From NCBI GenBank assembly GCA_900110635.1, contig FOEK01000011.1:1-64000 (forward strand): DNA of 64,000 nt, in the 5' to 3' direction. Made by a program: the position numbers and the translations under genes. Positions 11,494 through 26,690 of the stretch are shown piece by piece (position 1 is the first letter of the stretch; every line of letters begins with the position of its first letter). The notes below the pieces were generated by a model. The model searched no databases, was not told where the DNA came from, and worked only from the letters and a program-made list of their open reading frames with translations. Source of the stretch: Lachnospiraceae bacterium NE2001 (lineage in GTDB: Bacteria > Bacillota > Clostridia > Lachnospirales > Lachnospiraceae).

Positions 11494-13518
11494 ATGTTTT
11501 ATTGGAAATGTACTGGTGAGATAGAAGATGATGATACTATAAAGAGATTTAATGAAGAGGATTATAGGCTGAATAAAAAAATAGAACATAATATACAGAA
11601 AATTACTGAAAAACAGTTTTCATCTGGGGGAACTTTTATATTTTTGTCTGTTGTTGATTATAATAGAGTGATTTTTGGCGCGATTACAGAAAGTATTAAT
11701 AACTTTAAGAGTAAGTTTGATAGATATCTTGAATCTATAAAGATTAATCTTATAAATATTGAAATCGATGAAGTTACTCTTAAAGAGATTACTTATCTTT
11801 ATGAAGATTCAATTTGTGAAAATTATTCAAAAAGAGGTTGGAGATTATATGATTATTTTGGTATAGAAAGTTTTCAAAATAATTTTATGTGCAGAGATTA
11901 TAATGAAAGGTTAATAAAAGAGAACTGCAAATCAAAAATATATAGAAAAGCAGAAAGGTTGTATATATGTAATACTCTTGTACCAGAGCTAGATCGTATT
12001 TATGAAGGTAAAGTATTAAAGAACGCAAAAGGCCATCCAGTTCATTATTTGATTCAGGCTGATGATATGAAAATGCTGGATGGAAGTATTGATATATTAA
12101 CAGAAGCCTTATATGAGAATAATCGAATTAGTGGTAAAAGAGTCACTTATGCTGATTATTCATTCTCATCAAGATATAGATATAATCAAATAATAGATGA
12201 AATAGATGAACTCTATCTGAGTTGTATTGGGACAACTGTAGTAATTAAGTTTATTACTAAGGAAGAATATGAGGATTCATATTCAAGTTCTATAAGACAT
12301 TATATTGAGGTGATATCAAAGACGATAAACAAATATTGTAATGATGTTTTAACAATTCTTTGTTTTCCTAAAGAATGTTCAAAGTTAAAAGGATGGTTAT
12401 ATGAGTATCTGGGAAATATAAGTATAGTAGAACTTAAGGAGGAGTTGGTTTCTGCGTCAGAGGCTAGAAAAGTGCTGAATAGAAGAGCAAAAGAGCACAA
12501 TGTTAGAACTGACAAAAAGCTTCTTGCTAAGATTGATGATGACAAATCGTATTTATTAAAAGAACTAGATAATGATTTTGATGAATGGTATTGTGGAAAA
12601 CTTAAATCCTCCGTATATCCACAGTATCAATGTATTGAGACTGTAACCAATAAGAAAGCAAGGGAAAATCCTAAAGGAACATCTTATGAAGAATTAAACA
12701 AATTGATTGGTCTTAAAGAAGCTAAAAAGGTAATTGATCAGGCATTGGATTATTATAAGTTCCAAAAGCTTTTCAAGGATAAAGGAGTTGATCAGGGGAA
12801 TCTGTCTCGACATATGGTTTTTACTGGCAATCCAGGAACGGCAAAAACTACGGTTGCCAGAATGTTTGCAAATGTTATGAGGGACAATGGTGTATTGTCA
12901 ACTGGTGTTATGGTTGAGGTCGGTAGATCTGATCTTGTGGGCAAGTATGTTGGATGGACTGCACCAACGGTAAAGAGAAAGTTTGAAGACGCTAAAGGGG
13001 GCGTGCTTTTTATAGATGAAGCATATTCTCTGGTTGATGATCGGGATGGCCTGTATGGTGATGAGGCAATAAATACCATAGTACAGGAAATGGAAAATCA
13101 CAGGGATGAAGTGATCGTAATATTTGCCGGATATCCTGATAAAATGGAAGGCTTCTTAAAAAAGAATCCAGGACTACGTTCGAGAATAGCATTTCACGTA
13201 CCATTTGAAGATTATGATGTAGATGACCTATGTCAAATTGCTGAACTTATGGCTGAGAATAAAGGGCTTTCCTTTACAAGAGATGCAGTAGAAAAGCTTA
13301 GAGAAAACTTTGCAATTGCAAAAGAACAGCCTGATTTTGGAAATGGAAGATATGTGCGAAATGTCATCGAAAAAGCAAGAATGGCGCAGGCAAGCCGCCT
13401 CTTAAAAATGAATGTCGAAGAGTTAGCCAAGGACGATCTGATGACCTTCTGTGCAGAGGATATAGAACTTCCGAAAATCAAGAAAGATACCAGGGTGAAG
13501 TTTGGTTTTTGTACCTAA
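11494..13518 (+). CDS. CbbX/SpoVK-like AAA+ ATPase with large unknown N-terminal region
   Basis: About 674 residues. The C-terminal half is an AAA+ module of the CbbX/SpoVK/EccA group: Walker A TGNPGTAKTT near residue 443, Walker B GVLFIDEAYSL near 502, sensor 1 region VIVIFAGYPD near 538, arginine region NPGLRSRIAF near 555 and a helical lid. Such ATPases remodel partner proteins. The first about 390 residues match nothing I recognise and are far more A+T-rich than the AAA part, suggesting a mosaic gene. The ATG at 11494 follows GGAGG by 7 nt; an upstream ATG at 11425 lacks one. It opens the accessory island. Confidence 0.8.
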   Translation: MFYWKCTGEIEDDDTIKRFNEEDYRLNKKIEHNIQKITEKQFSSGGTFIFLSVVDYNRVIFGAITESINNFKSKFDRYLESIKINLINIEIDEVTLKEITYLYEDSICENYSKRGWRLYDYFGIESFQNNFMCRDYNERLIKENCKSKIYRKAERLYICNTLVPELDRIYEGKVLKNAKGHPVHYLIQADDMKMLDGSIDILTEALYENNRISGKRVTYADYSFSSRYRYNQIIDEIDELYLSCIGTTVVIKFITKEEYEDSYSSSIRHYIEVISKTINKYCNDVLTILCFPKECSKLKGWLYEYLGNISIVELKEELVSASEARKVLNRRAKEHNVRTDKKLLAKIDDDKSYLLKELDNDFDEWYCGKLKSSVYPQYQCIETVTNKKARENPKGTSYEELNKLIGLKEAKKVIDQALDYYKFQKLFKDKGVDQGNLSRHMVFTGNPGTAKTTVARMFANVMRDNGVLSTGVMVEVGRSDLVGKYVGWTAPTVKRKFEDAKGGVLFIDEAYSLVDDRDGLYGDEAINTIVQEMENHRDEVIVIFAGYPDKMEGFLKKNPGLRSRIAFHVPFEDYDVDDLCQIAELMAENKGLSFTRDAVEKLRENFAIAKEQPDFGNGRYVRNVIEKARMAQASRLLKMNVEELAKDDLMTFCAEDIELPKIKKDTRVKFGFCT

Positions 13519-13610
13519 TTTTTTGAAAAAAGTAGAATGTTTTTTTAAATCGAAATATATGATAAAATATTATGTCTAAACATATTTAGTGAAATTTGAA
13601 AGGGGAATAT

Positions 13611-14495
13611 ATGTCAAATCAAAAAAATAAGGATTATTTTAATGATATTAATAGATTTAATTCAGCTATCGATTTTATGCGATTTAGTCTTTTGGGACTT
13701 TCAATAAATGATTTACTTAAAGGAAATGAATTTATTATAAAAAAATCTATTATGCGTGGTTATCGTGATGCGGCAAGTCGAGTACTAAAAAAAGGTAAAA
13801 ATACTGAGACTGAATGGAAAGATAAAAAACAGAATGCAATAAAGAAAATATATGATTATATTATTATTCTTGAAGATTGTGATAATACAGATAAAATTGA
13901 ATATAAAGATGAATCTGATAATTTTTTTAAAAAATTAGATTTTTTCTTCGATAAATGGCACTATTCGCTTTATAAAGAACTTGATAGTATTTATTTAGGT
14001 AAAAATAATGAAAAAGGTACTTTTTCATTTGGAATTGCACAAAAATGGATTAATATGACTATAAAATATATTAGTATATTTTATATTAGTATATTATATG
14101 ATTTTGATATATCTGGTATTAAAGAAATAGATACTAGTAAGATTTATAGGTTGATTAATTATTCTGATTTTTTTCATATTCCTATAGATGGATATATACT
14201 AAATGCGTTAAAAATAAAGAAAGATAATTTTATTAATCCCAATGATACAATTCTTAAAGAATCGGAAATATTCAGGTTTCCCAAGGGACTAGATATACAG
14301 ATAGAAGTTTTAAATAATTCTTGGAGTGTTAATTTGGATGCTGAAAAGTACTATAATTTGCAAAAGGATATAAGGAGATATATAAACGGGAATGATTTTT
14401 GTAGTGTCAAACTGCAAGCTAATCCTTTAGATTGGGAGTTTGAGGCTTGGATTACAGAAGCACGGAAACAAAGAGATAAGAAAATAGATATATAA
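13611..14495 (+). CDS. Unrecognised island protein, paralogue of the one at 19072
   Basis: About 294 residues, very A+T-rich. I do not recognise the family. It shares three blocks, in the same order, with the product at 19072-19821: AQKWINMTIKYI (near residue 144), FFHIPIDGYI (near 188) and NPLDWEFEAWI (near 275). The conserved Trp/His/Asp suggest a folded domain with a functional site, mostly helical. No membrane segment. The ATG at 13611 follows AAGGGG; a TTG 15 nt upstream overlaps that site and is unlikely. It precedes the HAD phosphatase and RtcB genes. Confidence 0.7.
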   Translation: MSNQKNKDYFNDINRFNSAIDFMRFSLLGLSINDLLKGNEFIIKKSIMRGYRDAASRVLKKGKNTETEWKDKKQNAIKKIYDYIIILEDCDNTDKIEYKDESDNFFKKLDFFFDKWHYSLYKELDSIYLGKNNEKGTFSFGIAQKWINMTIKYISIFYISILYDFDISGIKEIDTSKIYRLINYSDFFHIPIDGYILNALKIKKDNFINPNDTILKESEIFRFPKGLDIQIEVLNNSWSVNLDAEKYYNLQKDIRRYINGNDFCSVKLQANPLDWEFEAWITEARKQRDKKIDI

Positions 14496-14532
14496 TATAT
14501 TACAAAGGCGCATAGAAGTTATTGGAAAAAGT

Positions 14533-15012
14533 ATGAAATTCATATTCTTAGATATAGATGGTGTTCTTAACAACGTTAATACTAAAGAAAAAGCTCCTAG
14601 TGGAAATACAGGCATCGAAGATTCCTTGATCAAAAAACTAGCTGATATTATAGCTTGTACTAATGCCAGGATAATCCTAACTAGTGATTGGAAAATTGGT
14701 TGGAATATTGATGATTCACTATGTTCTGAGGATGCCAGATATTTGAATACAAAACTTAAGAAGTATAATCTTGAAATATATGGAAAAACTTATGATACCC
14801 TTGTTTATGATCCGTATTATGAAGATAGAGGCAAGGGTATTCATAAGTATCTTAATGATGTTCGTGACGTAGAGTCTTATGTAGTACTTGACGACAATAC
14901 ATTTACAGATTTTGATGAAGAGATTAAAAAACATTTAGTTCTAATTGACTATAAACAAGGGCTTTCTGATGAAGATGTTGAGAGTGCTATAAGGTTATTA
15001 AATAACAAATAA
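14533..15012 (+). CDS. HAD phosphatase of the 'Swiss Army Knife' RNA-repair type
   Basis: 159 residues with the minimal HAD core: motif I FLDIDGVLN (nucleophile Asp and acid/base Asp near residues 6-8), motif II ILTSDWK near 53, and motif IV VVLDDN near 122. It belongs with the small cap-less HAD_SAK group, predicted to be the phosphatase part of multi-enzyme RNA-repair proteins. Here it is a separate gene directly upstream of an RtcB RNA ligase, which fits end-healing of RNA before ligation. The ribosome-binding site is weak. Enzyme class is confident; the RNA substrate is inferred from family and neighbour. Confidence 0.75.
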   Translation: MKFIFLDIDGVLNNVNTKEKAPSGNTGIEDSLIKKLADIIACTNARIILTSDWKIGWNIDDSLCSEDARYLNTKLKKYNLEIYGKTYDTLVYDPYYEDRGKGIHKYLNDVRDVESYVVLDDNTFTDFDEEIKKHLVLIDYKQGLSDEDVESAIRLLNNK

Positions 15013-15065
15013 GAGAATAGTATATAGAATAAATGGTTGGTGTATAAAAAGTATTATTCTTATAT

Positions 15066-15117
15066 GAGACATTATTTACTCATATATCCATCTATGATGG
15101 ATATATGAGTTTTTTTA
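15066..15117 (+). promoter_or_regulatory. Shared island promoter/dyad element, copy 1 (before rtcB)
   Basis: GAGACA (15066-15071), 21 nt, then TATGAT (15093-15098), inside a perfect 15-bp dyad whose arms ACTCATATATCCATC (15078-15092) and GATGGATATATGAGT (15096-15110) flank TAT. Seven T follow. The same arrangement recurs at 19870, 21871 and 23671. The dyad could be an operator overlapping the -10 box or an RNA hairpin at the 5' end of the transcript. Confidence 0.65.
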
Positions 15118-15132
15118 TTGGAGGAATGATAG

Positions 15133-16341
15133 ATGTTTGAGATAGTTGGAAAAAAATGTACCGCAATATGCTACGCAACGGTATATGAGGACGATGCGAT
15201 AGAACAAGTACGTCGTATGTGTGATTATGATTTTACTGAAGGCTCAAAGGTTCGTATCATGCCGGATGTTCATTATGGAAAAGGCTGCACTATAGGAACA
15301 ACTATGACAATAACGGATAAAGTGGTTCCCAATATCGTGGGGGTGGATATTGGCTGTGGAATGTACACTGTAAATCTAGGAAGTGTATCGATAGATTTAA
15401 ATATGTTCGATAAGGCAGCTCATTATATACCTTCTGGGAGAAATGTATGGGATGGCAGAAAAGAGAAGTTTGATCTGACTGAACTTAAATGCTTTAGAGA
15501 TTTGAAGGATTCTAGGAAGCTGGAAAGATCACTTGGTACTTTAGGTGGGGGGAATCATTTTATAGAGATAGATCAATCATCGGATGGTACATATTATCTG
15601 GTGATCCACTCTGGTAGCCGTAATCTTGGTAAACAGGTTGCTGAATACTATCAAAAACTTGCAATAGGATTACAGCACGGCAAAGCAACATTATTGCAAG
15701 ATCGAGAAGAAATAATACAAAAATATAAGTCTGAAGGGCGTGCATCTGAAATAGCGGAAGCAATAAAAGAATTAAATCGAAGTTTCCAATATAAGAAGTC
15801 AGATATTCCTGATGATCTTTGTTGGTTGTATGGCAGCTATTTAGACGATTATTTGCATGATGTAGAAATATGCCAACGTTTCGCTAGAAGAAATCGTGAG
15901 AAGATGGCCGAGATACTATTGGAAAAAACGGGATTAACTGCTGGAGAAGCATTTCATACGATTCATAATTATATAGATACTGATGAAATGATACTTCGAA
16001 AAGGAGCTATAGCGGCTCATGCTGGAGAGAAGGTATTGATTCCTATAAATATGAGAGATGGAAGTGTACTTGCTACTGGAAAAGGGAATCCTGAGTGGAA
16101 TTATTCTGCTCCTCACGGGGCAGGACGCGTTATGTCCAGAAAAGAAGCGAAGAATATGCTGACGTTAGAAGAATATAAGGAAACTATGAAAGGTATATAC
16201 ACAACTTCTATAAATCGAAAGACATTAGATGAAGCTCCTATGGCATATAAGTCTTTAGAGGCTATTATTGATTCGATTAATGAATCAGTCAATATAATTG
16301 AAGTATTAAAGCCGGTCTATAATTTTAAGGCATCTGAATGA
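15133..16341 (+). CDS. rtcB: RNA-splicing ligase RtcB
   Basis: 402 residues, close to the bacterial norm. RtcB joins RNA 2',3'-cyclic phosphate or 3'-phosphate ends to 5'-OH ends using GTP and Mn2+. Visible landmarks: PDVHYGKGCTIGTT near residue 42, the metal-binding Cys in VDIGCGMYT near 75, GGGNHFIEID near 138, HSGSRNLGKQ near 159, and APHGAGRVMSRKEA near 322 containing the histidine that carries GMP. GGAGG lies 8 nt before the ATG. It sits behind island promoter copy 1 and next to a HAD repair phosphatase; no archease gene is nearby. Very likely functional. Confidence 0.93.
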   Translation: MFEIVGKKCTAICYATVYEDDAIEQVRRMCDYDFTEGSKVRIMPDVHYGKGCTIGTTMTITDKVVPNIVGVDIGCGMYTVNLGSVSIDLNMFDKAAHYIPSGRNVWDGRKEKFDLTELKCFRDLKDSRKLERSLGTLGGGNHFIEIDQSSDGTYYLVIHSGSRNLGKQVAEYYQKLAIGLQHGKATLLQDREEIIQKYKSEGRASEIAEAIKELNRSFQYKKSDIPDDLCWLYGSYLDDYLHDVEICQRFARRNREKMAEILLEKTGLTAGEAFHTIHNYIDTDEMILRKGAIAAHAGEKVLIPINMRDGSVLATGKGNPEWNYSAPHGAGRVMSRKEAKNMLTLEEYKETMKGIYTTSINRKTLDEAPMAYKSLEAIIDSINESVNIIEVLKPVYNFKASE

Positions 16342-16348
16342 TGGGATG

Positions 16349-16405
16349 GTCGAGAAGCCGCTGCTAAATTATTGTGGATTAGATACATATGCAATGGTAA
16401 AATGA
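16349..16405 (+). pseudogene. Relic 1: C-terminal end of a DUF2779-like gene
   Basis: Just after rtcB the reading frame ends LLNYCGLDTYAMVK and stops at 16403. The wording is typical of the extreme C-terminus of DUF2779 proteins (Cas4-like nuclease relatives). Nothing upstream in this frame belongs to such a protein, so it is a fragment. Relic 2, at 16570-16671, carries the same end. Confidence 0.5.
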
Positions 16406-16462
16406 AAAAATAAGGAGTAGAGGTCTTATATTAGCTGGACTATATAATTGGAGGTGTGGGAT

Positions 16463-16576
16463 ATGTATGAGGTTCAACCTAAAAAACTACTAATTATGAA
16501 TATCCTGGATATTTTACAGAAATACACAGATGAAAATCATCGTCTGAGTCAGCAAGATATTATTGATATGAAATAG
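16463..16576 (+). pseudogene. Relic: first 37 codons of a duplicated WYL regulator gene
   Basis: Positions 16463-16572 are nearly identical to the start of the intact WYL gene at 17929, with one silent difference visible at codon 14, including a similar GGAGGTG ribosome-binding site. The copy breaks after QQDIIDM and reaches a stop at 16574, where it joins the DUF2779-like tail. It marks a duplication that has since lost most of one copy. Confidence 0.8.
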
Positions 16577-16671
16577 AAAAGACCAGACAAAACTTGCTTA
16601 AGTACTGTGGACTTGATACATATGCAATGGTAAAGGTATTAGAAAAAATAAGGGAAGTGACTTATGAATAA
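16570..16671 (+). pseudogene. Relic 2: C-terminal end of a DUF2779-like gene
   Basis: The frame reads EIEKTRQNLLKYCGLDTYAMV and then KVLEKIREVTYE to a TAA at 16669-16671. This is a longer version of the same C-terminus as relic 1. It is fused directly to the broken WYL start and overlaps the first codons of the nuclease gene at 16664. Confidence 0.55.
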
Positions 16672-17908
16672 AGCAATCATTCTGAACAAAATGTTTGAAG
16701 GATCCTGGAATGATCAAGAAGGCAATATATCTCATGAAATAATCGACTTTGCTTTGACGGATAACGGAAAATACTATGTATATAATATCCCTTATGGATA
16801 TTGTCCTGGGTGGATTCACATTAAGGGAGATACTTTTAAAGATGCTGAAACTCACGAAGTTGAATATCTGTATCTTACAAGTAAAAGTAGGAAAGGAACC
16901 TTCGATTTAAAATATAGGATTAAGCTTAAACGAAAACTACATAGTTTTTCGTATCATAAATCTCGAAATCAAAAAGATATTGTTTCTAGTAAAATGGAAC
17001 AGCTCTATGAAGAACTAAATGTTACATATGGTGGTAAAAAGATATCGGAAATTCTTGATACTGATACGCCACTAATTACTTTTGAAGCGGATTATATGGA
17101 AACAGCTGCAGAACCGATATCTATAAATCTTTCAGAATACAATTATCAGCGAAATAAAGGGTACATAAAAGAGGATGAATATAGAAATGATTATGCTTAT
17201 TTTCAAGAGACTGTAAAGAATTCTGATTGGATTCGAACCGGACTTAATCCAATTATTATAAATGGTGAAAATAAAAATCAGTATAACAGGAAAACATTTC
17301 TTGATTTAATTATTAAGACAGAAAGTGAAGAGTGTTATACAAATATGTTATTTTCCATTTTAATTCAGCCGGGCGTTTTTGAGGCTTTTTGTCGTTTTTT
17401 TGCCTCTAACAGAGATGTAAACTATAATCATCTTTTTCAAGTTGCAAGGGAATATGGAGTGGTTTCTGGACGTATGGATATTTGTGCGGATAATACTGTT
17501 CAAAGAGTGATTATAGAAAATAAATTATACAGTGGACTAAATGGTATTAAGAAAGATGACACCACACAGTTAAGCAGATATTATGAGTGGGGGATAAAGG
17601 CTAATATGGAACCTATTTGTTTTTTGTTAGTTCCTGATTTTCGTGCGTCAGTATCTCATTCAAATAGAAAAAGTGAGATTGAATCTGAAATAGAAAAGTA
17701 TGATCCTGAAATGTGTGGAAAGTATATTGTCATCTCATATGGTGATGTAGGTGATTTTATTGAAAATCATAAGGTGTTATTTGATAAAAACTATGAGTAC
17801 TACCAGTATTTGGACGATATAATAACCGCTTTTAGAAATTATGCTTATTCTTCAAAAAGTGAATATGTGCAAGCACTTTTTAGACAAAGAATAAAGGAAT
17901 TGGGTTAA
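16664..17908 (+). CDS. PD-(D/E)XK-like nuclease family protein
   Basis: 414 residues. A PD-(D/E)XK-type active site is visible: the Asp in SGRMDICA near residue 271, the E-x-K of IIENKLYSG near 285, then the QLSRYYEWG helix near 305 with its usual Gln. The N-terminal about 200 residues are an unrecognised domain, probably for target recognition. The protein resembles PD-(D/E)XK nuclease family proteins that accompany WYL regulators in defence-type loci. It is followed by the WYL gene after 20 nt and is flanked upstream by relics of that same gene, so it may have arrived with the duplication. Substrate unknown. Confidence 0.68.
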   Translation: MNKAIILNKMFEGSWNDQEGNISHEIIDFALTDNGKYYVYNIPYGYCPGWIHIKGDTFKDAETHEVEYLYLTSKSRKGTFDLKYRIKLKRKLHSFSYHKSRNQKDIVSSKMEQLYEELNVTYGGKKISEILDTDTPLITFEADYMETAAEPISINLSEYNYQRNKGYIKEDEYRNDYAYFQETVKNSDWIRTGLNPIIINGENKNQYNRKTFLDLIIKTESEECYTNMLFSILIQPGVFEAFCRFFASNRDVNYNHLFQVAREYGVVSGRMDICADNTVQRVIIENKLYSGLNGIKKDDTTQLSRYYEWGIKANMEPICFLLVPDFRASVSHSNRKSEIESEIEKYDPEMCGKYIVISYGDVGDFIENHKVLFDKNYEYYQYLDDIITAFRNYAYSSKSEYVQALFRQRIKELG

Positions 17909-17928
17909 AGAAATGGAGGTGATCGATT

Positions 17929-19026
17929 ATGTATGAGGTTCAACCTAAAAAACTACTAATTATGAATATTCTGGATATTTTACAGAAATACACAGATGAA
18001 AATCATCGTCTGAGTCAGCAAGATATTATTGATATACTAGAAAAAGAATATGAAATGACAGCAGGCAGGAAAAGCATTAAAAGAAATATCATGAATCTTA
18101 TGGATTTTGGGTATGAAATTGAATATAGCGAAAGCGTTCGTCAAATGCCTGTAAAAGATAAAGAAGGAAAAGCTGTTTATGATCCTGATACAGGGAAACG
18201 TGTTACAGAAGATAACTATATTTGGTCGGATTATTACCTTGTTCGTGATTTTGATGATAGTGAGCTTAGACTCTTAATAGATGGCCTGCTATTTTCCAGG
18301 CATATTCCATATAGTCAATGCAAGACTCTTGTTGAAAAGATTGAGAAGTTATCAAGTGAGAATTTCAAATCAAGAGTTAAGCATATCTCAACGCTTCCTG
18401 TCGATAAATCAGATAATAAGGCATTGTTCTATAATATTGACCTATTGGATGAAGCTATTAGTAAAAAGAGAAAGATTACATTTAAATATCTGGAATACGA
18501 TATAGATAAGAAAATGCATATTAAAAAGCATGAGGACGGTAGTGACCGTATATATCTGATTACTCCTTATCAGATGGTGGCTAGAGAAGGAAAGTATTAT
18601 CTTATTTGTAATTATGATAAGTATGATGATATATCAAATTACCGGGTTGATCGTATAACGGATATACAAATAACTAATCAGCCCGCTAAACCATTTAAAG
18701 AATTAAAGTGGGCCGGCAAGGCAGAGCTTAACCTTTCGGATTATATGAAGAAGCATCCGTATATGTATTCCAGTGAGGATGTGACGGTTACATTTAGAGT
18801 GGTTCTTCCGATGATTAGTGATGTGATTGATCTCTTTGGAACGGATGTTAGGTTCTCAGATAAAGATGAAACGGGGGTGACAGTAACTACAACTACAAAT
18901 GAAAGAGCAATGGAGCAATTTGCACTGAACTATGCGCCAGATGTAATGGTACTGAGACCGGAGAAACTGAGGAAGAAGATTGTGGAGAAGTTGAAGAGTG
19001 CCGTGGAGGCGTATGAGAAAGTGTAA
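17929..19026 (+). CDS. HTH/WYL-domain transcriptional regulator of the island
   Basis: 365 residues. An N-terminal winged helix (HRLSQQDIIDILEKEYEMTAGR) is followed by a WYL domain with RKITFKYLEY near 183, LITPYQMVAREGKYYLICNY near 205 and YRVDRITDIQ near 235, then a WCX-type C-terminal domain. WYL repressors of this layout control defence and nuclease genes by binding inverted repeats, so this protein is the best local candidate for reading the dyad elements at 15066, 19870, 21871 and 23671. That link is inference. GGAGGTG lies 8-9 nt before the ATG. The broken copy at 16463 shows it was once duplicated. Confidence 0.82.
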   Translation: MYEVQPKKLLIMNILDILQKYTDENHRLSQQDIIDILEKEYEMTAGRKSIKRNIMNLMDFGYEIEYSESVRQMPVKDKEGKAVYDPDTGKRVTEDNYIWSDYYLVRDFDDSELRLLIDGLLFSRHIPYSQCKTLVEKIEKLSSENFKSRVKHISTLPVDKSDNKALFYNIDLLDEAISKKRKITFKYLEYDIDKKMHIKKHEDGSDRIYLITPYQMVAREGKYYLICNYDKYDDISNYRVDRITDIQITNQPAKPFKELKWAGKAELNLSDYMKKHPYMYSSEDVTVTFRVVLPMISDVIDLFGTDVRFSDKDETGVTVTTTTNERAMEQFALNYAPDVMVLRPEKLRKKIVEKLKSAVEAYEKV

Positions 19027-19071
19027 ATATTTAAATGATGGCTGTTAATCATAATAAGGAGGTTTATTATT

Positions 19072-19821
19072 ATGGGAAATGAAATCAAGATAAAAAAGGA
19101 AACTCTAGATTCGTTGATTTTTTTCTATTTTGGATTTACTTTGGATGAGGATTACTGCGATATAATTACTAGAATAATTGAAAAGGCATATGTTGATGCA
19201 ACTAATCAGGGGGCATTTAATACAATAGCAGATCCAAGAAAAGCAAAACTATCTAAATATGGTAAAGACGGTAAAGGTGGTTCCTTTAAGATAGTGCTTG
19301 ATAGAATAGGAATTCTAGAGAAAGATGAGATGGTAAATTTTGATGGGTGGCACAATGAAACCTGTAATATGCTAATAAAACTATATGATAAAAATGGTTT
19401 AAAAGATATTTTCACATATGGTAATGCTCAGAAATGGATTAATATGACATTAAAATATATATTTTTATTAAATGGAATTTCAAATAATAACGCAGAATCA
19501 ATTTTGGAAAAATCATCTAAAATATGTAGATATTCTTCGGATTTTCATATACCAATAGATAGTTATATAATTGATGAACTATGGGATCCTAAAAAAAAGG
19601 TGAAGCTACCAGTCAAAGATAATGCGAAAAAAGGTAGAGATTATCTTTACAAAACTCCTAGTGAATATGTTAAGGGATGGAGTAACTGGGTTGAATGTGA
19701 TTATTTAGATGCATTAGGGACTTGGAGAGAGGTTACCGGTATAAATCCATTGGTATGGGAATCAGAACATTGGATCAATAGAGCTAAAAAACGAAAAAGA
19801 AAAAATATTACGAATAAATGA
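19072..19821 (+). CDS. Unrecognised island protein, paralogue of the one at 13611
   Basis: 249 residues. Family not recognised, but clearly related to the product at 13611-14495 through GNAQKWINMTLKYI (near 121), DFHIPIDSYI (near 162) and NPLVWESEHWI (near 225). The spacing between blocks is also similar, while the N-terminal parts differ. The conserved AQKWINM helix and the HIPID motif would be the first places to look for an active site. AAGGAGG precedes the ATG. It lies between the WYL gene and the DnaA paralogue and ends in its own terminator. Confidence 0.7.
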   Translation: MGNEIKIKKETLDSLIFFYFGFTLDEDYCDIITRIIEKAYVDATNQGAFNTIADPRKAKLSKYGKDGKGGSFKIVLDRIGILEKDEMVNFDGWHNETCNMLIKLYDKNGLKDIFTYGNAQKWINMTLKYIFLLNGISNNNAESILEKSSKICRYSSDFHIPIDSYIIDELWDPKKKVKLPVKDNAKKGRDYLYKTPSEYVKGWSNWVECDYLDALGTWREVTGINPLVWESEHWINRAKKRKRKNITNK

Positions 19822-19833
19822 TAATTCTTGTAT

Positions 19834-19867
19834 GACCAGATGATATTGATTGCCATCTGGTCTTTTT
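19834..19867 (+). terminator. Intrinsic terminator
   Basis: GACCAGATG (19834-19842) pairs with CATCTGGTC (19854-19862), followed by TTTTT. It lies directly before island promoter copy 2. Confidence 0.85.
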
Positions 19868-19869
19868 AT

Positions 19870-19914
19870 GTGACAAATTTTCCTCATATATCCGTTTATG
19901 ATGGATATATGGGG
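19870..19914 (+). promoter_or_regulatory. Shared island promoter/dyad element, copy 2 (before the dnaA paralogue)
   Basis: GTGACA (19870-19875), 21 nt, then TATGAT (19897-19902). The arms CCTCATATATCCGTT (19882-19896) and GATGGATATATGGGG (19900-19914) pair fully if G-U is allowed. The flank TTTTTATGTGACA is shared with copy 4. Confidence 0.65.
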
Positions 19915-19951
19915 ATTTTTGTTTAGTTACCTAGAAATGGAGAAGAGAAAA

Positions 19952-20998
19952 ATGTCTGATATAGTAAAACTAAATCCATTATATACATTTGATAATTTTA
20001 TGGTAGGTAATAACATACAGGCCTACGATACCTGTGTTGCGGTAGCAGAACAACCTGGGCGTAATGAATATAATCCACTTTTTATATATGGGGGATCTGG
20101 CGTTGGAAAGACTCATCTTATTCAAGCAATAACTCATCATATAATAAGTCATAATCAAGATATTATAGTTATTTATATATCTGCTGAAATGTTTGTTGAC
20201 CAGCTTATAGATGCAATATCCAAGAATAATACCGAGGAGTTTAAAGCTAACTATAAACAGATCAATATGCTAATAATTGAAGATATTCATGATATTATTG
20301 GAAAAGAAAGGATTGAAAAGGAATTATTAGAGATAGTTAAATATCTTAATGAAAATCAAGTACAGATGATTTTTTCTTCAGATAGACTGCCAAAAGAGTT
20401 TTTTGAATTAGGTGCAGGCCTAAAGCCGAAATCTGTGTGGGGGATTCTAAGTAGAATTCCGAGCCCTGATTATGAAACTCGCGTTAAGATAATTCGTAAA
20501 AAGGCTGAAATAAAAGGATTAAATGATATTCAAGATGATATTGTATCTTATATGGCTTGTAATGTTGCTTCCGATATTAGATTGATAGAAGGAATACTTA
20601 ATAAGATATGTATTTATCGTAAAGAAGAACATAGTACAGTGACGATTGAATATTTGAGAAAAATAATGAAGGATTTTGTTTTGGAACCACCACAAATACC
20701 TCTAGAAAAGATAATGTTGATAGTTGCGGAATACTATGAAATATCAGTTGAAGATATTTTATCAAATAAAAGAATGAAAAATATAAATCAAGCAAGGCGA
20801 ATATATATTTATTTTAGCCATATGTTTACTAATAAAACATTACAAGAGATAGGATGGTCTTTGGGCATAATTGATGAAGAATATATAATGAGGGCACTTT
20901 ACAGGATAAAAGAACAGAAAAGAAATGATGTTAAGCTTAATGATCAACTTGATGAGATTACAAGGATAATAAAAGATAGGTTTATGTACTGGAGATAA
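19952..20998 (+). CDS. DnaA paralogue (AAA+ and degenerate domain IV, no N-terminal domain)
   Basis: 348 residues. It begins like DnaA domain III (LNPLYTFDNFMVGNNIQAYDT) with Walker A YGGSGVGKTHL near 44, ISAEMFVDQLI near 80, Walker B MLIIEDIHDI near 106 and sensor 1 IFSSDR near 141. The C-terminus has a DnaA domain IV fold (ARRIYIYFSHMFTNKTLQEIG), but the DnaA-box-contacting GGRDHTTV signature is replaced by IIDEEYIM. DnaA domains I and II are missing. It is therefore not the chromosomal initiator; it probably loads something or binds other DNA. Start chosen at 19952 behind GGAG. It heads the transcription unit from promoter copy 2. Confidence 0.85.
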   Translation: MSDIVKLNPLYTFDNFMVGNNIQAYDTCVAVAEQPGRNEYNPLFIYGGSGVGKTHLIQAITHHIISHNQDIIVIYISAEMFVDQLIDAISKNNTEEFKANYKQINMLIIEDIHDIIGKERIEKELLEIVKYLNENQVQMIFSSDRLPKEFFELGAGLKPKSVWGILSRIPSPDYETRVKIIRKKAEIKGLNDIQDDIVSYMACNVASDIRLIEGILNKICIYRKEEHSTVTIEYLRKIMKDFVLEPPQIPLEKIMLIVAEYYEISVEDILSNKRMKNINQARRIYIYFSHMFTNKTLQEIGWSLGIIDEEYIMRALYRIKEQKRNDVKLNDQLDEITRIIKDRFMYWR

Positions 20999-21001
20999 AA
21001 A

Positions 21002-21445
21002 ATGAGTTCTTTTAGCGAGGCCTGGTTATTAGATAAAATGGGTAACTGCATAGAAGTATATGCTCATCCATCAGAATATTTTGAATTTGAAAGTATAGTA
21101 GATTTAGTTTCAAGATATGGGGATGAATCAGATAAAAACAATTGCGGAGAATGGAAATCTACCAAATCGGAAACTGCAAAAGCGGCAATATTATATTCAT
21201 ATTATCAAAATTGGTGCAGGGTAAGACTTTGGAAGGATGATAAACTGACATTTATAATCGGTTCAACGGATTATATTTGGTATAAAACAATTGTAGATTT
21301 TTTGCTTACTCATTCATATGTAAGCTATGCATCTATAACAGTTTCTGATTTATCAGGAAGGATATATTGGGATGATGTGTCATATAGTTATTGTATAGAT
21401 CTTTCAAATGAAGAAATCTTAAGTTCTGTTTTTAAGGATATTTAG
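21002..21445 (+). CDS. Hypothetical protein
   Basis: 147 residues, not recognised. Trp-, Tyr- and Ser-rich with alternating hydrophobic strands (KLTFIIGSTDYIWY, YASITVSDLSGRIYW), suggesting a small mixed alpha/beta domain without membrane segments. It starts 3 nt after the DnaA paralogue's stop, with the ribosome-binding site GGAG inside that gene's end, so the two are translationally coupled and likely work together. Confidence 0.6.
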   Translation: MSSFSEAWLLDKMGNCIEVYAHPSEYFEFESIVDLVSRYGDESDKNNCGEWKSTKSETAKAAILYSYYQNWCRVRLWKDDKLTFIIGSTDYIWYKTIVDFLLTHSYVSYASITVSDLSGRIYWDDVSYSYCIDLSNEEILSSVFKDI

Positions 21446-21508
21446 AATCTGGATAAGAGTTGTAATTTTTCTGAATGATGATTAATAGAATTATATTGGA
21501 GGAGTTAG

Positions 21509-21844
21509 ATGTCAAGAGGTGTTTTTTGGATTATTGGTCAGAAATTATATGCGTTTCCATTTGATGGGAGTTATGTGCAAGGAATTGCAAAGTCAGGAAA
21601 GACCTATAATCATGAGAAACTATGGGAATATGTAAGACCTAAAGGATGCAACAAGCTATTTGATTATTATCCAAGGGGAAGGGTTGATTATACAGGTAAA
21701 GGCAAACCTATAATTTATATGAGTCCACATATTGATAAGTCTTTTGTTTTAGAGATTATTAAGGAGTTTGAACTAGTAGATGATCCTATTATAAGATTTG
21801 ATTATAGTAAGCATTATCATTGCTATCTTGATAAGGATAAGTGA
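21509..21844 (+). CDS. Hypothetical protein
   Basis: 111 residues, not recognised. It opens RGVFWIIGQKLYAFPFDGS and contains YYPRGRVDYTGKGKPIIYMSP, a basic and aromatic stretch that could contact nucleic acid. The wording is reminiscent of small phage or immunity-type proteins, but nothing firm can be said. GGAGG lies 6 nt upstream of the ATG. Its stop codon overlaps the terminator at 21843. Confidence 0.6.
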   Translation: MSRGVFWIIGQKLYAFPFDGSYVQGIAKSGKTYNHEKLWEYVRPKGCNKLFDYYPRGRVDYTGKGKPIIYMSPHIDKSFVLEIIKEFELVDDPIIRFDYSKHYHCYLDKDK

Positions 21845-21868
21845 CGACTGTAGAAGGTCGTCCTTTTT
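21843..21868 (+). terminator. Intrinsic terminator
   Basis: GACGAC (21843-21848) pairs with GTCGTC (21857-21862), followed by CTTTTT. It separates the dnaA-like unit from promoter copy 3. Confidence 0.75.
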
Positions 21869-21870
21869 AT

Positions 21871-21915
21871 GGGACATTTTTTCCTCATATATCCGTTTAT
21901 GATGGGTATATGAGG
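21871..21915 (+). promoter_or_regulatory. Shared island promoter/dyad element, copy 3 (before the SLOG gene)
   Basis: GGGACA (21871-21876), 21 nt, then TATGAT (21898-21903). The arms CCTCATATATCCGTT (21883-21897) and GATGGGTATATGAGG (21901-21915) pair with G-U changes relative to copy 2. Confidence 0.65.
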
Positions 21916-21942
21916 ATTTTATATTGAAGGAGGGAATCGTTT

Positions 21943-22305
21943 GTGAAAGTGATAATTGCGGGATTAAGAGGTTTTAATGATTATGCTTTATTCAAAGGTA
22001 AGTTGGAGCAGATTATTCGTGACAATGATATTGAGGTGACTGAAATCGTATCTGGCGGAGCATCTGGTGTGGATTCAATGGCTGAAAGGTTTGCAAACGA
22101 AAAAGGGATTCCTGTAAAGGTATTTAATGCAGATTGGAAAAAATATGGAAGAGGAGCCGGTCCTGTCAGAAATAAAGAGATGGCTGTGTATGCAGGTGAT
22201 AAGGGCGCATTAATCGCCTTCTGGGATTATAAGTCAAAGGGAACTGGCTCTATGATTAAAATTGCAGAGAAAATGAATTTGAATGTATACATCTGCAGTG
22301 TCTAA
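21943..22305 (+). CDS. SLOG/DUF2493-like nucleotide-binding protein
   Basis: 120 residues. A single Rossmann-like SLOG domain of the DUF2493/YspA type: IIAGLRGFNDYALF at the N-terminus, the glycine-rich SGGASGVDSMAERFA near residue 37 and NKEMAVYAGDKGALIAFWD near 78. SLOG domains bind or process nucleotide-derived ligands, and many sit in stress or defence loci. Translation starts at GTG 21943, 7-8 nt behind GGAGG. It is the first gene after promoter copy 3. Domain call confident, function inferred. Confidence 0.82.
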   Translation: MKVIIAGLRGFNDYALFKGKLEQIIRDNDIEVTEIVSGGASGVDSMAERFANEKGIPVKVFNADWKKYGRGAGPVRNKEMAVYAGDKGALIAFWDYKSKGTGSMIKIAEKMNLNVYICSV

Positions 22306-22421
22306 TGGATTTTGAGTTATCTTCGAAGAAGATGAGTGATATTTGTAACTGAATGATAAATATAACCACTTATGATTTTTATCATTATTTCATGTTTGAT
22401 TGAAGAATATGGAGGAAATGT

Positions 22422-23597
22422 ATGAAAGTTTTTTGTAATGGAGCCCAGATGTCCTGTGGCAGAGAAAGTATAATAACTCATAAAATTAATGAATACATTT
22501 CTACTCAATCAGAAATTATAGTGTCTGATTATAATATCGGGGATTATGAGACGCAGAAGTATTTATCGGATAAAGAATATAAAAATGTGACTATCGTGTA
22601 TATGAGAGAACCTTATGAGTGGACAAGAAAAAATGTTGGTGACTGGCCATGTAAGATATTAATTCGTGATCAGTATGAATTTAATTTGAATCCGTTAATT
22701 GCCTTCGCGATGGCTGAGGAATGTGATGAAGGTTTTTTTGCCTGGGATGGAACGGATATTGAAGTGTTTGTTGGAATCCTTGCATTTCTTGGAAATGGTA
22801 AAAAGTGTTCAATATATAACACTAAAAGTGGAGATATTAGGGATATAAACAGGATTGAAGATTGGCAGATATATGTATGGGCCGAAAGAGATGACAGAAC
22901 CAAGAGTAACGTTAAATTGTTTTGTGATGATGTCGTTGATTTGAATGTGTTAAGAGGTTATAAGGATACTTTTGGTGAAATGATGGGCCTTATATTGGAT
23001 AAAAGTGCGGATATTCTTTATAAGAATGATTTAAAAAAATTGATTTGCAAGTCCAATGCCTCAATAAAGAAGAAAAAAGAACTGGTCGAGTTACTTTATG
23101 ATAAAGAAGATATTTTTTGTGAACTTATACAAAAAGTTATTGAATGGAAGTCTACTGGTGGAAATATAGAGAAATTAAGACGAGTACTCATGAATACATA
23201 TGAACATTCTTTTTGTAATGCTTATGGTGATTTTATTGTTGCAGATTCTTGGATAAGAGGATCAAACGGTAGTGATGATGATATTGTTATGTATCTATGG
23301 GAACGCGTTGAATATAACGGGGATTATAAATATAATCCGGTTGGTATGTATGCAGATATTGACGAAGCTTTATACTATCTGGAAACTATGGCTTCAAATG
23401 GTGGAAAGATTGAAGTGTGGGAAAGAAAGAGGGGGGTCGATACGATAGTTTATTTTGAGCATCGTGTAACATTTTACACGAACGACACTGAATTAAATGG
23501 TTTTCAATTTATGAGAGAGTGCCATATCAACGATCATGATCCTTTTGAACCGGAATCATATGTTGGTAAAAATAATAATTATATGTATGAAGATTAA
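22422..23597 (+). CDS. Large protein with N-terminal SLOG-like domain
   Basis: 391 residues. Residues 1-130 look SLOG-like (KVFCNGAQMSCGRES, then DYNIGDYETQKYLSD, and ECDEGFFAWDGTD near 103) and are related to the N-terminus of the product at 26734: both have KNVTIVY/RNVTVYV and a following R(K/H)N(V/I)G(D/N)W. Residues about 150-391 are an unrecognised region, mixed helical then beta-rich (YLWERVEYNGDYKYNP, HRVTFYTNDTE). GGAGG precedes the ATG. Inferred role: a sensor with an attached effector or partner-binding part. Confidence 0.62.
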   Translation: MKVFCNGAQMSCGRESIITHKINEYISTQSEIIVSDYNIGDYETQKYLSDKEYKNVTIVYMREPYEWTRKNVGDWPCKILIRDQYEFNLNPLIAFAMAEECDEGFFAWDGTDIEVFVGILAFLGNGKKCSIYNTKSGDIRDINRIEDWQIYVWAERDDRTKSNVKLFCDDVVDLNVLRGYKDTFGEMMGLILDKSADILYKNDLKKLICKSNASIKKKKELVELLYDKEDIFCELIQKVIEWKSTGGNIEKLRRVLMNTYEHSFCNAYGDFIVADSWIRGSNGSDDDIVMYLWERVEYNGDYKYNPVGMYADIDEALYYLETMASNGGKIEVWERKRGVDTIVYFEHRVTFYTNDTELNGFQFMRECHINDHDPFEPESYVGKNNNYMYED

Positions 23598-23638
23598 AAG
23601 AAACCATGATTTTTATATGTGGAATCATTAGCGTGGCA

Positions 23639-23668
23639 GGGAAAAGTAATAGATCTTTTCCCTTTTTT
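23639..23668 (+). terminator. Intrinsic terminator
   Basis: GGGAAAAG (23639-23646) pairs with CTTTTCCC (23655-23662), followed by six T. Promoter copy 4 begins just after it. Confidence 0.85.
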
Positions 23669-23670
23669 AT

Positions 23671-23712
23671 GTGACAAAAATAGAACATCTCCCCGTATAC
23701 AATATGTATATA
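23671..23712 (+). promoter_or_regulatory. Shared island promoter/dyad element, copy 4 (divergent)
   Basis: GTGACA (23671-23676), 21 nt, then TACAAT (23698-23703). The flank TTTTTATGTGACA matches copy 2 exactly. The dyad has changed to TATACA-ATA-TGTATA (23696-23710), but CAT...TCCCCGTA still aligns with CATATATCCGTT in copies 2 and 3. Confidence 0.55.
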
Positions 23713-23780
23713 AAGTGAGGAAGTTAAAAACTCAAAATGAAAGAAGAACGGGATGATTATATTGGGGAGGATAAAAGAAA

Positions 23781-25061
23781 ATGTCTGTTATAGATAGAAA
23801 AATGTATACAAGATTAAAAAACTGGTGTGATTGTCATGAAGGGGATAGGCCTAAAAATCAGAACATAATGTATGTAAACAGTCATGATCATGCACTTACT
23901 AAAGCAACAATTAAAAAAACGATGTTTGAAATGAAACAGGAAGATATCCATGGAGAGTTATATATATCGTTATATTCGGCCGAAAATCTATTTCAGAATA
24001 TGCGTAAATATTTTTCGCATATTTCCGAGCTTTATGGGAACATTCCAGATGATAAAGAATCGGTTATAGATATTGTTAATGGCCTTATTCCTACATGTGG
24101 TTGGATTGTTCTTATTGTAGAAGATATTGATAAAATTGCAGAAAATGACATACAAATACAGGAATTCATGAGAACTATTATTACGTTTGCTTCAAAACAC
24201 TCCAGTATAATTCTTGTTGGAAATGGTAATAAAACAGATGTTTTATCAAGATGCGAATATGTATCAGATGAGATGTTTGATGATGATAGGATTAATGGAG
24301 GAGAAAATCAGCATTTGATAGGCCTCTATAATCAGGAAGCGTCTCCAGATAGAGAAAACTTGATTTATGAAACATATGAGAAACATAGCAAAGAGTTAAA
24401 TTATTATTGGTCTATAATATATGATCAGCTTGAAAATGGTTTTTTTGATTATGAAGGGTTTAAAATTCTTTTCAAAGAAACGATGGAGTATATTGTTCCT
24501 CGTGTGACAAAACTGAAGATTTATCGTAGAGATATTTCTCTTATAGAGAATATAGGTGCTATGCGTGATAAAAGACCGAAGGTCATTGAAGGTTGTAAAC
24601 TTTGGGAGTTTGAAGCTGCTCGACAATTTGCTAATGGGCTACACTATTGTATCGAGAATAAAAGTGGCGAAAATGATGATATATCTAAAGAAAAAATTGA
24701 TATTAATGTAGTGATAGAACATCGTAAAGAACATCATGGAATACTTCATATCAGTGGAGCGACATATACTACCATTGTAGTTTCTGTTGATGATGTATGT
24801 GAGGAAATGGATTATCTTTCAAATGATATTTTTAGTACGGCTTATGATGGTGGCTCTGTATTTGAAATGTTAAAACGTGTTAGGGCAAAAAGGAATAAAA
24901 ATAACATTGTTGAGAATACTGTAGGAAAACTTGATCAGGTTGGAGAGTCTTTTAATGCCTTGATGGATGGTATTAAGGAAGCGGCTGATAAAACAATAAA
25001 TAAAGATTCGGGAAAAAAGGTTCGTAGGTACAAGGATAATCAGAAAGGAAAAAATGAGTAG
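23781..25061 (+). CDS. P-loop-less AAA/DnaA-like protein (tentative)
   Basis: 426 residues. Residues about 25-170 read like a DnaA-type AAA core that has lost the Walker A loop: NIMYVNSHDHALTKATI replaces it, then ELYISLYSAENLFQNM (compare VIYISAEMFVDQLI in the gene at 19952), a Walker B-like WIVLIVEDIDKI near 108 and a sensor-like SSIILVGNG near 145. The C-terminal half is unrecognised and ends in a Lys-rich tail. It may be a catalytically dead partner of the DnaA paralogue. It heads the unit behind promoter copy 4. The family link is inference from motif order. Confidence 0.5.
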   Translation: MSVIDRKMYTRLKNWCDCHEGDRPKNQNIMYVNSHDHALTKATIKKTMFEMKQEDIHGELYISLYSAENLFQNMRKYFSHISELYGNIPDDKESVIDIVNGLIPTCGWIVLIVEDIDKIAENDIQIQEFMRTIITFASKHSSIILVGNGNKTDVLSRCEYVSDEMFDDDRINGGENQHLIGLYNQEASPDRENLIYETYEKHSKELNYYWSIIYDQLENGFFDYEGFKILFKETMEYIVPRVTKLKIYRRDISLIENIGAMRDKRPKVIEGCKLWEFEAARQFANGLHYCIENKSGENDDISKEKIDINVVIEHRKEHHGILHISGATYTTIVVSVDDVCEEMDYLSNDIFSTAYDGGSVFEMLKRVRAKRNKNNIVENTVGKLDQVGESFNALMDGIKEAADKTINKDSGKKVRRYKDNQKGKNE

Positions 25062-25076
25062 GAGGATAATATCAGC

Positions 25077-25463
25077 ATGAAAATATTAAAACGAGAGTAT
25101 GATATTAGTGTAGAAAATATTAAAGGATATGAAAAGCTTGAATCGGATAAGATAAAAGAGATAAAAAAATGTAAATTGTATCGTTTTATAGTAGTGCTGG
25201 ATGAGTCACAATACATTATTAATAATGATGGCTATCCGGAGATGACCCGAACAGCGCAAGAAGAATATGATGATTTTGTAAATAATATTCGAGAGAGAAT
25301 AATTAAAGACAACATCAAGATTATTGAAGAAGGATATGGACTAGATGAAGATGAACTGGATTGGCATATAACAGTGTGTTATATAAATCCAGAGGATGAA
25401 CAGTGTATAGACCATATTATTGAATTTGATACATGTGTTAGAACGGAAGAGACTGATGAATAA
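25077..25463 (+). CDS. Hypothetical protein
   Basis: 128 residues, not recognised. Highly charged and acidic, with a central VVLDESQYIINNDGYPEMTR stretch and a C-terminal EDELDWHITVCYINPEDEQ. No membrane segment or known motif. AGGAGG stands 9 nt before the ATG. It follows the AAA-like gene by 15 nt and belongs to the same transcription unit. Confidence 0.6.
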   Translation: MKILKREYDISVENIKGYEKLESDKIKEIKKCKLYRFIVVLDESQYIINNDGYPEMTRTAQEEYDDFVNNIRERIIKDNIKIIEEGYGLDEDELDWHITVCYINPEDEQCIDHIIEFDTCVRTEETDE

Positions 25464-25508
25464 ATAGCTTTTTTACTATTGTATAAGAAGTTTCTGGAGG
25501 CAAATAAC

Positions 25509-25853
25509 ATGAGCTTATTTGGAAATTATGGGAAAATGCCCGGATTATTTCAAGAGGTTAAATGTTTTTTTCAGCGCGGAAAGAAAGGATACTGTGATAA
25601 AGATATTTGGGAATTAAATACTTGGATGACTACAACGTTTGCTCAAATGCTCAGAGAATTTAGAGAGAAGGCATATGATTATCCACCTGGTTTTTCTGAT
25701 AATGATGAACATGAAATACCAGCTGGAATAATAGCATCTCATGTTCTTGGAAACATTGTTTCAGAAGAAGATTATAAAGAATACTTAGATTGGAAAAATA
25801 CTGTATTAAAGATGAGTTATTATTTTGAAAATGCTGTATGTAATTGTGGATAA
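25509..25853 (+). CDS. Hypothetical protein, possibly cut short by an in-frame TAA
   Basis: 114 residues, not recognised. Contains DIWELNTWMTTTFAQMLREF and HVLGNIVSEEDYKEYLDWKNTV, mainly helical. GGAGG precedes the ATG at 25509 by 7-8 nt. Directly after the TAA (25851-25853) the same frame stays open for 26 codons of protein-like text (TPSIEAKNNRDNALELLRKH...) to a TGA at 25932. The gene may therefore have been longer and been interrupted by a nonsense change, or the stop may be read through. Confidence 0.58.
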   Translation: MSLFGNYGKMPGLFQEVKCFFQRGKKGYCDKDIWELNTWMTTTFAQMLREFREKAYDYPPGFSDNDEHEIPAGIIASHVLGNIVSEEDYKEYLDWKNTVLKMSYYFENAVCNCG

Positions 25854-25976
25854 ACACCATCGATAGAGGCAAAGAATAATAGAGATAATGCACTTGAATT
25901 ATTAAGAAAACACTTCTTTGATCTATGGTGTTGATTTTAAAGTTATTAATAGTAATGATGGAAAGGATAGAAAATT

Positions 25977-26156
25977 ATGAATAAAGATAAAAAGGCACCT
26001 GAAGTTCCAAGGAGTCTTACTGATATTCTTAATAATCTTAAAATTGAATCTGTTGTTGTAGTAGATGATGTAAGAAATATAACACCAGAAGAAATGAAAA
26101 TGATTCATGAGGAATTAAGGACGTCAGCTGGTACTGAAAATGGAAACAATACATAG
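25977..26156 (+). CDS. Small hypothetical protein
   Basis: 59 residues beginning MNKDKKAPEVPRSLTDILNN and continuing with a hydrophobic strand, IESVVVVDDV, and a helix, TPEEMKMIHEEL. The ATG at 25977 is preceded by GGAAAGG at a workable distance. It lies in the same direction as its neighbours and fills the gap between them. The evidence is its coding-like composition and position only. Confidence 0.45.
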   Translation: MNKDKKAPEVPRSLTDILNNLKIESVVVVDDVRNITPEEMKMIHEELRTSAGTENGNNT

Positions 26157-26189
26157 TAGATTTTTTACGTTATAAAAGAGGAATAAGAT

Positions 26190-26690
26190 TTGGATTATAA
26201 ATGGATATTATTCGAGGAAAATAATAATGGCCGTGCATATGATAATTATGTTTGGGTATGCGACAAAAGTATTAGAAAATATTATATCTATAATTCCGTT
26301 GAAGAGGCTATGAAGGAATTCTTTAATAAAATATATGAGATAGAAAAAAGCGGGATTGTTCATAAAATTAATGCCTTACTGGATTCATCAAAAGATAATA
26401 TTGATGAAGTGTGGCTTCAGATTGAGGATGAAATCATTAATGGTAAGGATGCTGATAGAGACACTGATGATGATTTTGGTGATGCAGAAGAGATGATATT
26501 TTCCGGTCATAATAATCGATACTGTTGGACACTATATGATGGTTTTGAAATATGGTACACAATAGACAGAAATTGTTTTGTTTTAAGTGATCAAATTGAA
26601 AAGTATCACTTTGACGCATGGAAGGAAACAGAAAAGGATAATGATTTTACATATTTCCATATTTTAGAGGTTGTAAGAGTAGCAATATAA
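26190..26690 (+). CDS. Hypothetical protein (TTG start)
   Basis: 166 residues, not recognised. The middle is strongly acidic (DADRDTDDDFGDAEEM). The ends are rich in Trp and Tyr (YVWVCDKSIRKYYIY; YCWTLYDGFEIWYTID). AGAGGAA lies about 7 nt before the TTG at 26190; no in-frame ATG lies nearby, so TTG is the likely start. Part of the run of small island genes before the third SLOG-like gene. Confidence 0.55.
   Translation: MDYKWILFEENNNGRAYDNYVWVCDKSIRKYYIYNSVEEAMKEFFNKIYEIEKSGIVHKINALLDSSKDNIDEVWLQIEDEIINGKDADRDTDDDFGDAEEMIFSGHNNRYCWTLYDGFEIWYTIDRNCFVLSDQIEKYHFDAWKETEKDNDFTYFHILEVVRVAI

Follow-up and report, generated by a model that had tools for sequence, protein, structure and literature searches.

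A palindromic promoter element shared within a Lachnospiraceae gene island, and a WYL-domain protein as its candidate regulator

Several WYL-domain transcription factors have recently been described, and the following comparison draws on passages of the respective reports. DriD of Caulobacter crescentus is a homodimeric activator (PMC12340889), while PafBC of mycobacteria is an activator composed of two different subunits, PafB and PafC, which is associated with a -26 motif (PMC11804915) and reprograms sigmaA RNA polymerase at promoters that it alone can use, i.e., by sigma adaptation. SiwR of Mycobacterium smegmatis is also a homodimeric activator, whose 19-bp imperfect palindrome is located between the -35 and -10 positions (PMC10693628), while BrxR represses through inverted repeats (PMC9122601). 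Here, we describe a promoter element that recurs in a gene island of Lachnospiraceae bacterium NE2001, together with a WYL protein encoded at 17929 in the same island. The analysed stretch of 64,000 nucleotides (nt) of contig FOEK01000011.1 is referred to as the window, the genome amounts to 3.72 Mb, and coordinates are window positions unless a locus label (L…) is given.

The initial annotation of the window had reported that four transcription units share a G(T/A/G)GACA box followed after 21 nt by TATGAT or TACAAT. The corresponding pattern, KDGACA-N21-TAYRAT, is indeed present exactly at 15066, 19870, 21871 and 23671 and nowhere else in the window (four matches versus a mean of 0.35 and a largest count of two in 100 shuffles), and a gene start follows shortly downstream in each case, with gaps of 34, 49, 39 and 77 nt between the 3' edge of the -10 box and the start codon as read. 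The notion of a shared, non-standard promoter element is supported by these data; GTGACA, however, is not a -35 box at an unusual spacing. It represents one half of a 20-bp palindrome, ATGnGACA-WWWW-TGTCnCAT, which is followed after exactly 9 nt by a TATAAT-like -10 box, without a -35 box, and whose centre falls at approximately -31.5 when the -10 box is set at -12 to -7; the previously noted GTGACA-N21-TATGAT thus corresponds to the left half-site plus the -10 box. The iterated matrix, which is self-trained and descriptive, yields the consensus ATGnGACA, an A/T run, nnC-nCAT, nine bases and TATnAT.

Five copies of this element, all on the forward strand, were identified in the window, and the scores given here derive from a leave-one-genome-out matrix, trained on other genomes only. 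Site 1 (ATGAGACATTATTTACTCAT, 15064-15083; -10 TATGAT at 15093-15098; 28.6 bits), a 20-bp palindrome-like operator without mismatches to the relaxed pattern, heads a transcription unit that runs from the RtcB gene to the WYL gene. Site 2 (ATGTGACAAATTTTCCTCAT, 19868-19887; -10 TATGAT at 19897-19902; 38.3 bits) precedes a DnaA-like gene, site 3 (ATGGGACATTTTTTCCTCAT, 21869-21888; -10 TATGAT at 21898-21903; 34.6 bits) a SLOG gene, and site 4 (ATGTGACAAAAATAGAACAT, 23669-23688; -10 TACAAT at 23698-23703; 34.5 bits) the open reading frame (ORF) at 23781. Site 5 (ATGTGCTATTTTTTACCCAT, 11425-11444; -10 TAGTAT at 11454-11459; 21.3 bits, with the matrix match at 11429) precedes an AAA gene and represents a weaker copy, spanning 11425-11459, that had been overlooked initially. 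These five sites are the top five of the window, the next best match scoring 11.7 bits. As three copies are near-identical, they might represent a mobile or recombination repeat; this was rejected as the principal explanation, since the sites of other genomes differ in sequence while retaining the same architecture.

A whole-genome search, as had been suggested for this motif, returned nine matches to the relaxed pattern at two mismatches versus four for the control, and the corresponding counts in relatives were 22 versus 8, 3 versus 1, 9 versus 4, 16 versus 0, and 6 versus 1. The four originally reported sites carry 0, 0, 0 and 1 mismatches to this pattern, C25:147432 also carries one, and site 5 is unmatched. 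The strict pattern at one mismatch was found in 28 of 397 family genomes, with the reversed control in 38 of 397 (counted from the table); the source genome holds three such matches and two other genomes hold two. The matrix, seeded with 18 sites chosen by eye from intergenic gaps of WYL-anchored loci, returned 24 distinct matches of at least 20 bits in the relatives G397-G401, all with a same-strand ORF start within 220 nt. G405 and G016 each contain one match of at least 20 bits, and no match at 9 bits was found in G402, G403, G404 and L. eligens. The G016 match (L096:4819, 25.7 bits, before a SpoIIE gene) is taken as chance, no WYL orthologue at E 1e-60 having been found in that genome.

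The distance between palindrome and -10 box is rigid. Across 16 WYL-anchored loci outside the training set (279 kb), in which TG...CA palindromes (symmetric at 7 or more of 10 pairs) were scored for a TATAAT-like hexamer, a spacing of 9 was observed 15 times, while every other spacing from 0 to 30 occurred at most twice. The discovery loci, where the palindromes are less perfect, gave four cases at spacing 9 and at most two at any other, and the control set gave two matches at spacing 9, both from the window loci L003 and L025. With the operator columns alone, 36 of 100 matches in held-out genomes possess a TATAAT-like hexamer at spacing 9, as compared to at most seven elsewhere (at spacing 14), although this test is partly dependent, since L090, L091, L092 and L096 had been retrieved through pattern matches. 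Furthermore, no TTGACA-like -35 box is present at 16-18 nt, as would be expected of a normal sigmaA promoter: the best -35 match averages 1.76 of 6 positions at 45 such promoters versus 2.51 at random positions, and a TG extended -10 is likewise absent.

The anatomy of the element also bears on the earlier suggestion of an alternative, extracytoplasmic function (ECF)-type sigma factor that would read GNGACA-N17-CGTATA as its -35 and -10 boxes. GACA and CGTATA are indeed 17 nt apart in several sites; the conserved parts, however, form a palindrome that is followed by a TATAAT-like -10 box, and CCGTA is weak beyond the first clade, whereas TA---T at spacing 9 persists. Moreover, no sigma factor gene is among the Pfam results for the window genes at 10547-29692, the genome as a whole not having been searched for one. 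We assign this explanation only a slim chance.

The WYL protein, the proposed binder of the five operators, comprises 365 residues (17929-19026, forward strand) and exceeds the cut-offs of the Pfam families WYL (46.4 bits) and WCX (26.2 bits), which are preceded by a predicted helix-turn-helix domain, its N-terminal helices and wing being taken from a structure model of moderate quality. In a Foldseek search ranked by E-value, DriD (6.8e-12) and PafBC (3.7e-11) came ahead of BrxR (8.1e-6) and CapW (2.1e-5). Orthologues (E 1e-60) are present in 12 of the 397 family genomes, including the source genome, and regions were retrieved from nine of the 11 further family genomes in which WYL was matched, i.e., from all but G128 and G285. 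A search with the WYL gene returned 11 loci, ten of which hold most of the gene. Several WYL loci carry the same genes in shuffled order, namely those for RtcB, HAD_SAK_2, the AAA ATPase, SLOG, the DnaA-like protein and unnamed families, and the motif architecture recurs upstream of the same genes (RtcB, HAD, AAA, DnaA-like) in relatives with WYL orthologues. The motif is thus linked to WYL orthologues, and the 17929 protein, initially named as the nearest candidate for a dedicated regulator, is supported as the likely one. In L118 and L119 a site is located directly upstream of the WYL gene which, together with the presence of the WYL gene in the site 1 unit, would fit autoregulation.

Other WYL-related sequences were also observed. 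A second WYL protein is encoded in the window at 3986-4936, approximately 13 kb away, and is 25% identical to the 17929 protein. A WYL paralogue (31%) at L009:2394-3404 lies two genes before the orthologue and immediately behind a motif site, an arrangement reminiscent of PafB and PafC. At 16463-16576, just upstream of the ORF at 16664-17908, the 5' end of the WYL gene is repeated in near-exact but curtailed form, as read from the sequence, which resembles an insertion that has duplicated one end.

A co-change of operator and protein was found in three genomes. In G330, G304 and G380 palindromes of the type ATGTGCAT-NNNN-ATGCGCAT are present, again 9 nt before the -10 box, in which both sides are altered symmetrically from GACA to GCAT. 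When whole genomes were searched, each of the ten exact matches to the altered palindrome resided on the contig that bears the WYL gene, and some of them precede AAA and other island genes; among eight other genomes, one-mismatch matches were found in two, i.e., G003 (one) and G022 (two). The WYL proteins of G330, G304 and G380 possess Ser at position 52, while Arg is present in 18 of 23 aligned rows, Ala in L122 and Asn in the second WYL protein of G330. Arg52 is located inside the recognition helix (residues 47-59) predicted by the structure model. Both the palindrome and the symmetric change of the operator point to a homodimer that is predicted to bind this DNA. In addition, these findings bear on the idea that another DNA-binding protein of the island, e.g., the DnaA-like protein with its DnaA helix-turn-helix, is the regulator and that the WYL link reflects neighbourhood only. 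The loci were retrieved via the WYL gene, so other island genes are linked as well; however, the operator and the WYL helix change together, and DnaA-like homologues were found, among the fetched loci, only in L012 (and again in the overlapping L093), L017 and L124, while sites occur without them. We consider it very unlikely that another DNA-binding protein of the island is the regulator.

Based on sequence comparison, we regard it as fairly likely that these promoter elements define a dedicated WYL regulon, in which a dimer of the 17929 protein would bind ATGnGACA-WWWW-TGTCnCAT centred at approximately -31.5, i.e., at the usual position of the -35 box, and would recruit sigmaA RNA polymerase to a promoter with a TATAAT-like -10 box and no -35 box. 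The protein would activate transcription much as DriD does, its own gene would be autoregulated through site 1, and nucleic-acid damage would be the signal. We infer activation because the promoters share the anatomy of DriD promoters: compared with DriD as described in the passages of PMC12340889, both systems involve a protein with a winged helix-turn-helix, a WYL and a WCX domain, and an inverted repeat of approximately 20 bp with a GAC...GTC core, which overlies the -35 position at an equal distance from the -10 box of promoters with poor -35 boxes (1-2 of 6). DriD-like homodimeric WYL activators are further characterised by activating transcription when they bind single-stranded DNA. In contrast, the DriD operator is ATACGAC-N7-GTCGTAT rather than ATGnGACA-N4-TGTCnCAT, DriD belongs to another phylum and is very weakly similar in sequence, and the regulon proposed here consists of RtcB, AAA, DnaA-like and SLOG genes. 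The likeness to PafBC as described in PMC11804915 would lie in sigma adaptation, while PafBC is a heterodimer with a -26 motif; the palindrome described here suggests a symmetric dimer, and the island contains one WYL gene rather than a tandem pair of different WYL subunits. SiwR resembles the regulator proposed here as a homodimeric WYL activator with a palindromic site, yet it controls adjacent DinB-like genes, and the passages of PMC10693628 do not describe a multi-operon operator like the present one.

The same WYL protein and operator may alternatively act in repression, the protein covering -41 to -22 and blocking polymerase until release by a ligand, like BrxR or CapW. The operator does overlap the core promoter, BrxR represses through inverted repeats (PMC9122601) and the WYL factors of ADP-ribosylation systems are, in the passages of PMC9503650, predicted negative regulators. 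BrxR shares with the present protein that it is a WYL regulator of a gene island, but its 11-bp repeats with a 5-bp gap lie, in the passages of PMC9122601, downstream of the predicted -10 box, and the BrxR and CapW folds rank below those of DriD and PafBC. Moreover, lacking both a -35 box and a TG extended -10, the unaided promoter looks weak, and an exact distance of 9 nt to the -10 box would be needless for a repressor. We consider repression rather unlikely.

A number of observations weigh against a DriD-like WYL activator. Operator position alone cannot tell an activator from a repressor. The structure model is of moderate confidence (pLDDT 68.7), the Foldseek TM-scores are approximately 0.25, so that the domain arrangement is tentative, and the sequence resembles that of DriD only weakly, with E 0.059 for 8tp8 in a profile search. 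The three Ser52 proteins form one clade (100/100), so that the co-change represents one evolutionary event, and L122, with Ala52, possesses one GACA-type candidate, contrary to a simple R52 rule. The spacing-9 counts from the 16 loci stem from just six loci of five genomes, two of the 15 represent one palindrome flanked by a -10 box on both sides, and these loci had been picked by WYL alone while the test was framed after matrix matches had been seen in them. Finally, no clear site was found in the WYL loci L016, L019, L113, L120 and L121, and L014, L015 and L114 give weak or diverged candidates that were partly picked by eye.

The element had also been described as lying in or beside a 15-bp dyad at all four positions, which holds for three of them. 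The long dyad CTCATATATCC-N9-GGATATATGAG is located at 15079, 19883 and 21884 (shuffle mean 0.00 in the window) and at no further place in the genome with up to three mismatches, while 23671 is without a significant hairpin (p 0.16). G-U-compatible changes that preserve the pairing were present as claimed. Terminator-like hairpins, each with a loop of three, overlie promoter 1 (15078-15110; 15 pairs, a T-run, fold p 0.0 of 200), promoter 2 (19881-19915; 16 pairs) and promoter 3 (21882-21916; 16 pairs), all on the forward strand, with the -10 box spanning the loop and inner right arm. All three have a T-run behind a stable stem that contains G-C pairs, i.e., the hallmarks of an intrinsic terminator, and are included in the 15 sites listed by a terminator scan (shuffle mean 5.0). 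The exact hairpin was found in one of the 397 family genomes, i.e., the source genome itself, and in no viral contigs.

An RNA hairpin switch had been among the initial proposals, and we considered such a switch, or an attenuator, within the 5' leader. A strong hairpin (p at most 0.01), followed by T-rich sequence, is present at the three window sites and at L010:7929 and L090:5531, and in a covariation analysis 67 of 70 cells pair, mostly by G-U and with one compensatory change, slid controls being far lower. Conversely, the number of pairs changed on both sides is reached by 105 of 500 shuffles, the hairpin is missing from 30 of the 35 inspected sites and, given textbook promoter spacing, the element's own transcript would begin within the right arm, so that the hairpin would form only in read-through RNA from upstream. 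An RNA switch is therefore highly improbable, and in the simplest reading the hairpin over the three promoters is probably an overlapping intrinsic terminator for such read-through. As to the claim that three copies directly follow a terminator, the scan lists terminator-like hairpins before 21871 and 23671, while that before 19870 was read by eye and is unlisted. A long terminator-like hairpin of 18 pairs is also located just before site 5 (11363-11402). An Rfam scan of the window returned nothing but a thiamine pyrophosphate (TPP) riboswitch (766-877) and a tRNA (421-504).

The genes of the island, which are encoded on the forward strand where stated (+), indicate what such a regulon might comprise. 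Behind site 5 lies an AAA ATPase gene (11494-13518, +; Pfam AAA and AAA_lid_6), which probably starts at 11494 and not at 11425; its homologues align from residue 20-23 onward in several loci. The HAD_SAK_2 gene (14533-15012, +; Pfam) has no site directly before it, while its homologues in L008, L010 and L012 each possess their own. The first gene of unit 1 encodes an RtcB RNA ligase (15133-16341, +; Pfam RtcB, 199.6 bits) and is followed by the ORF at 16664-17908 (414 residues; no Pfam family, a weak PADLOC match of 27.6 bits to PDC-S26). Sites 2 and 3 precede the genes for the DnaA-like protein (19952-20998, +; Pfam Bac_DnaA and Bac_DnaA_C) and a SLOG-family (YAcAr) protein with a GTG start (21943-22305, +; Pfam), respectively, and site 4 precedes an ORF of 426 residues (23781-25061, +; no Pfam family), homologues of which in L008, L010 and L012 are likewise behind a site. 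The ORFs at 13596-14495 and 19072-19821, which match no Pfam family, are apparent distant homologues of each other, with further copies in the islands of relatives.

In relatives, sites also precede genes for an AAA/M41 protease, a DnaB-like helicase, a YpsA-type SLOG protein and, more weakly, an SNF2-type helicase, and one of the islands contains an ADP-ribosylglycohydrolase gene. The sites before AAA/M41 (FtsH-like) protease genes are L092:6057 and L091:610, the former of which, in G400, is approximately 1.2 Mb away from the island. Among the matches listed in plasmid and phage searches, most were to RtcB, while two records concerned WYL and some DnaA. The gene content of the proposed regulon suggests a response to nucleic-acid damage or conflict.

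The element and its candidate WYL protein look like a further representative of a type of gene switch that has become known only recently, and literature searches combining the WYL domain with Lachnospiraceae and regulon, and with Firmicutes, returned no such regulon in titles and abstract openings. More tentatively, and with considerable doubt, Clostridia may possess a WYL activator subfamily, not described before, that would sense damaged nucleic acid and switch on a regulon of RNA-repair and AAA+ genes from promoters without a -35 box, its units being reshuffled between species and some of its promoters lying inside terminator hairpins, so that units would be insulated yet co-regulated. The pair of R52 and operator provides the basis for a direct specificity-swap test. 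For an RtcB-containing island in Clostridia, an operator is now available along with a candidate for its regulator and a list of targets, which opens the signal for RNA repair in these bacteria to testing; if the proposed mechanism is correct, a regulator encoded nearby would induce RNA-repair and stress genes in concert.

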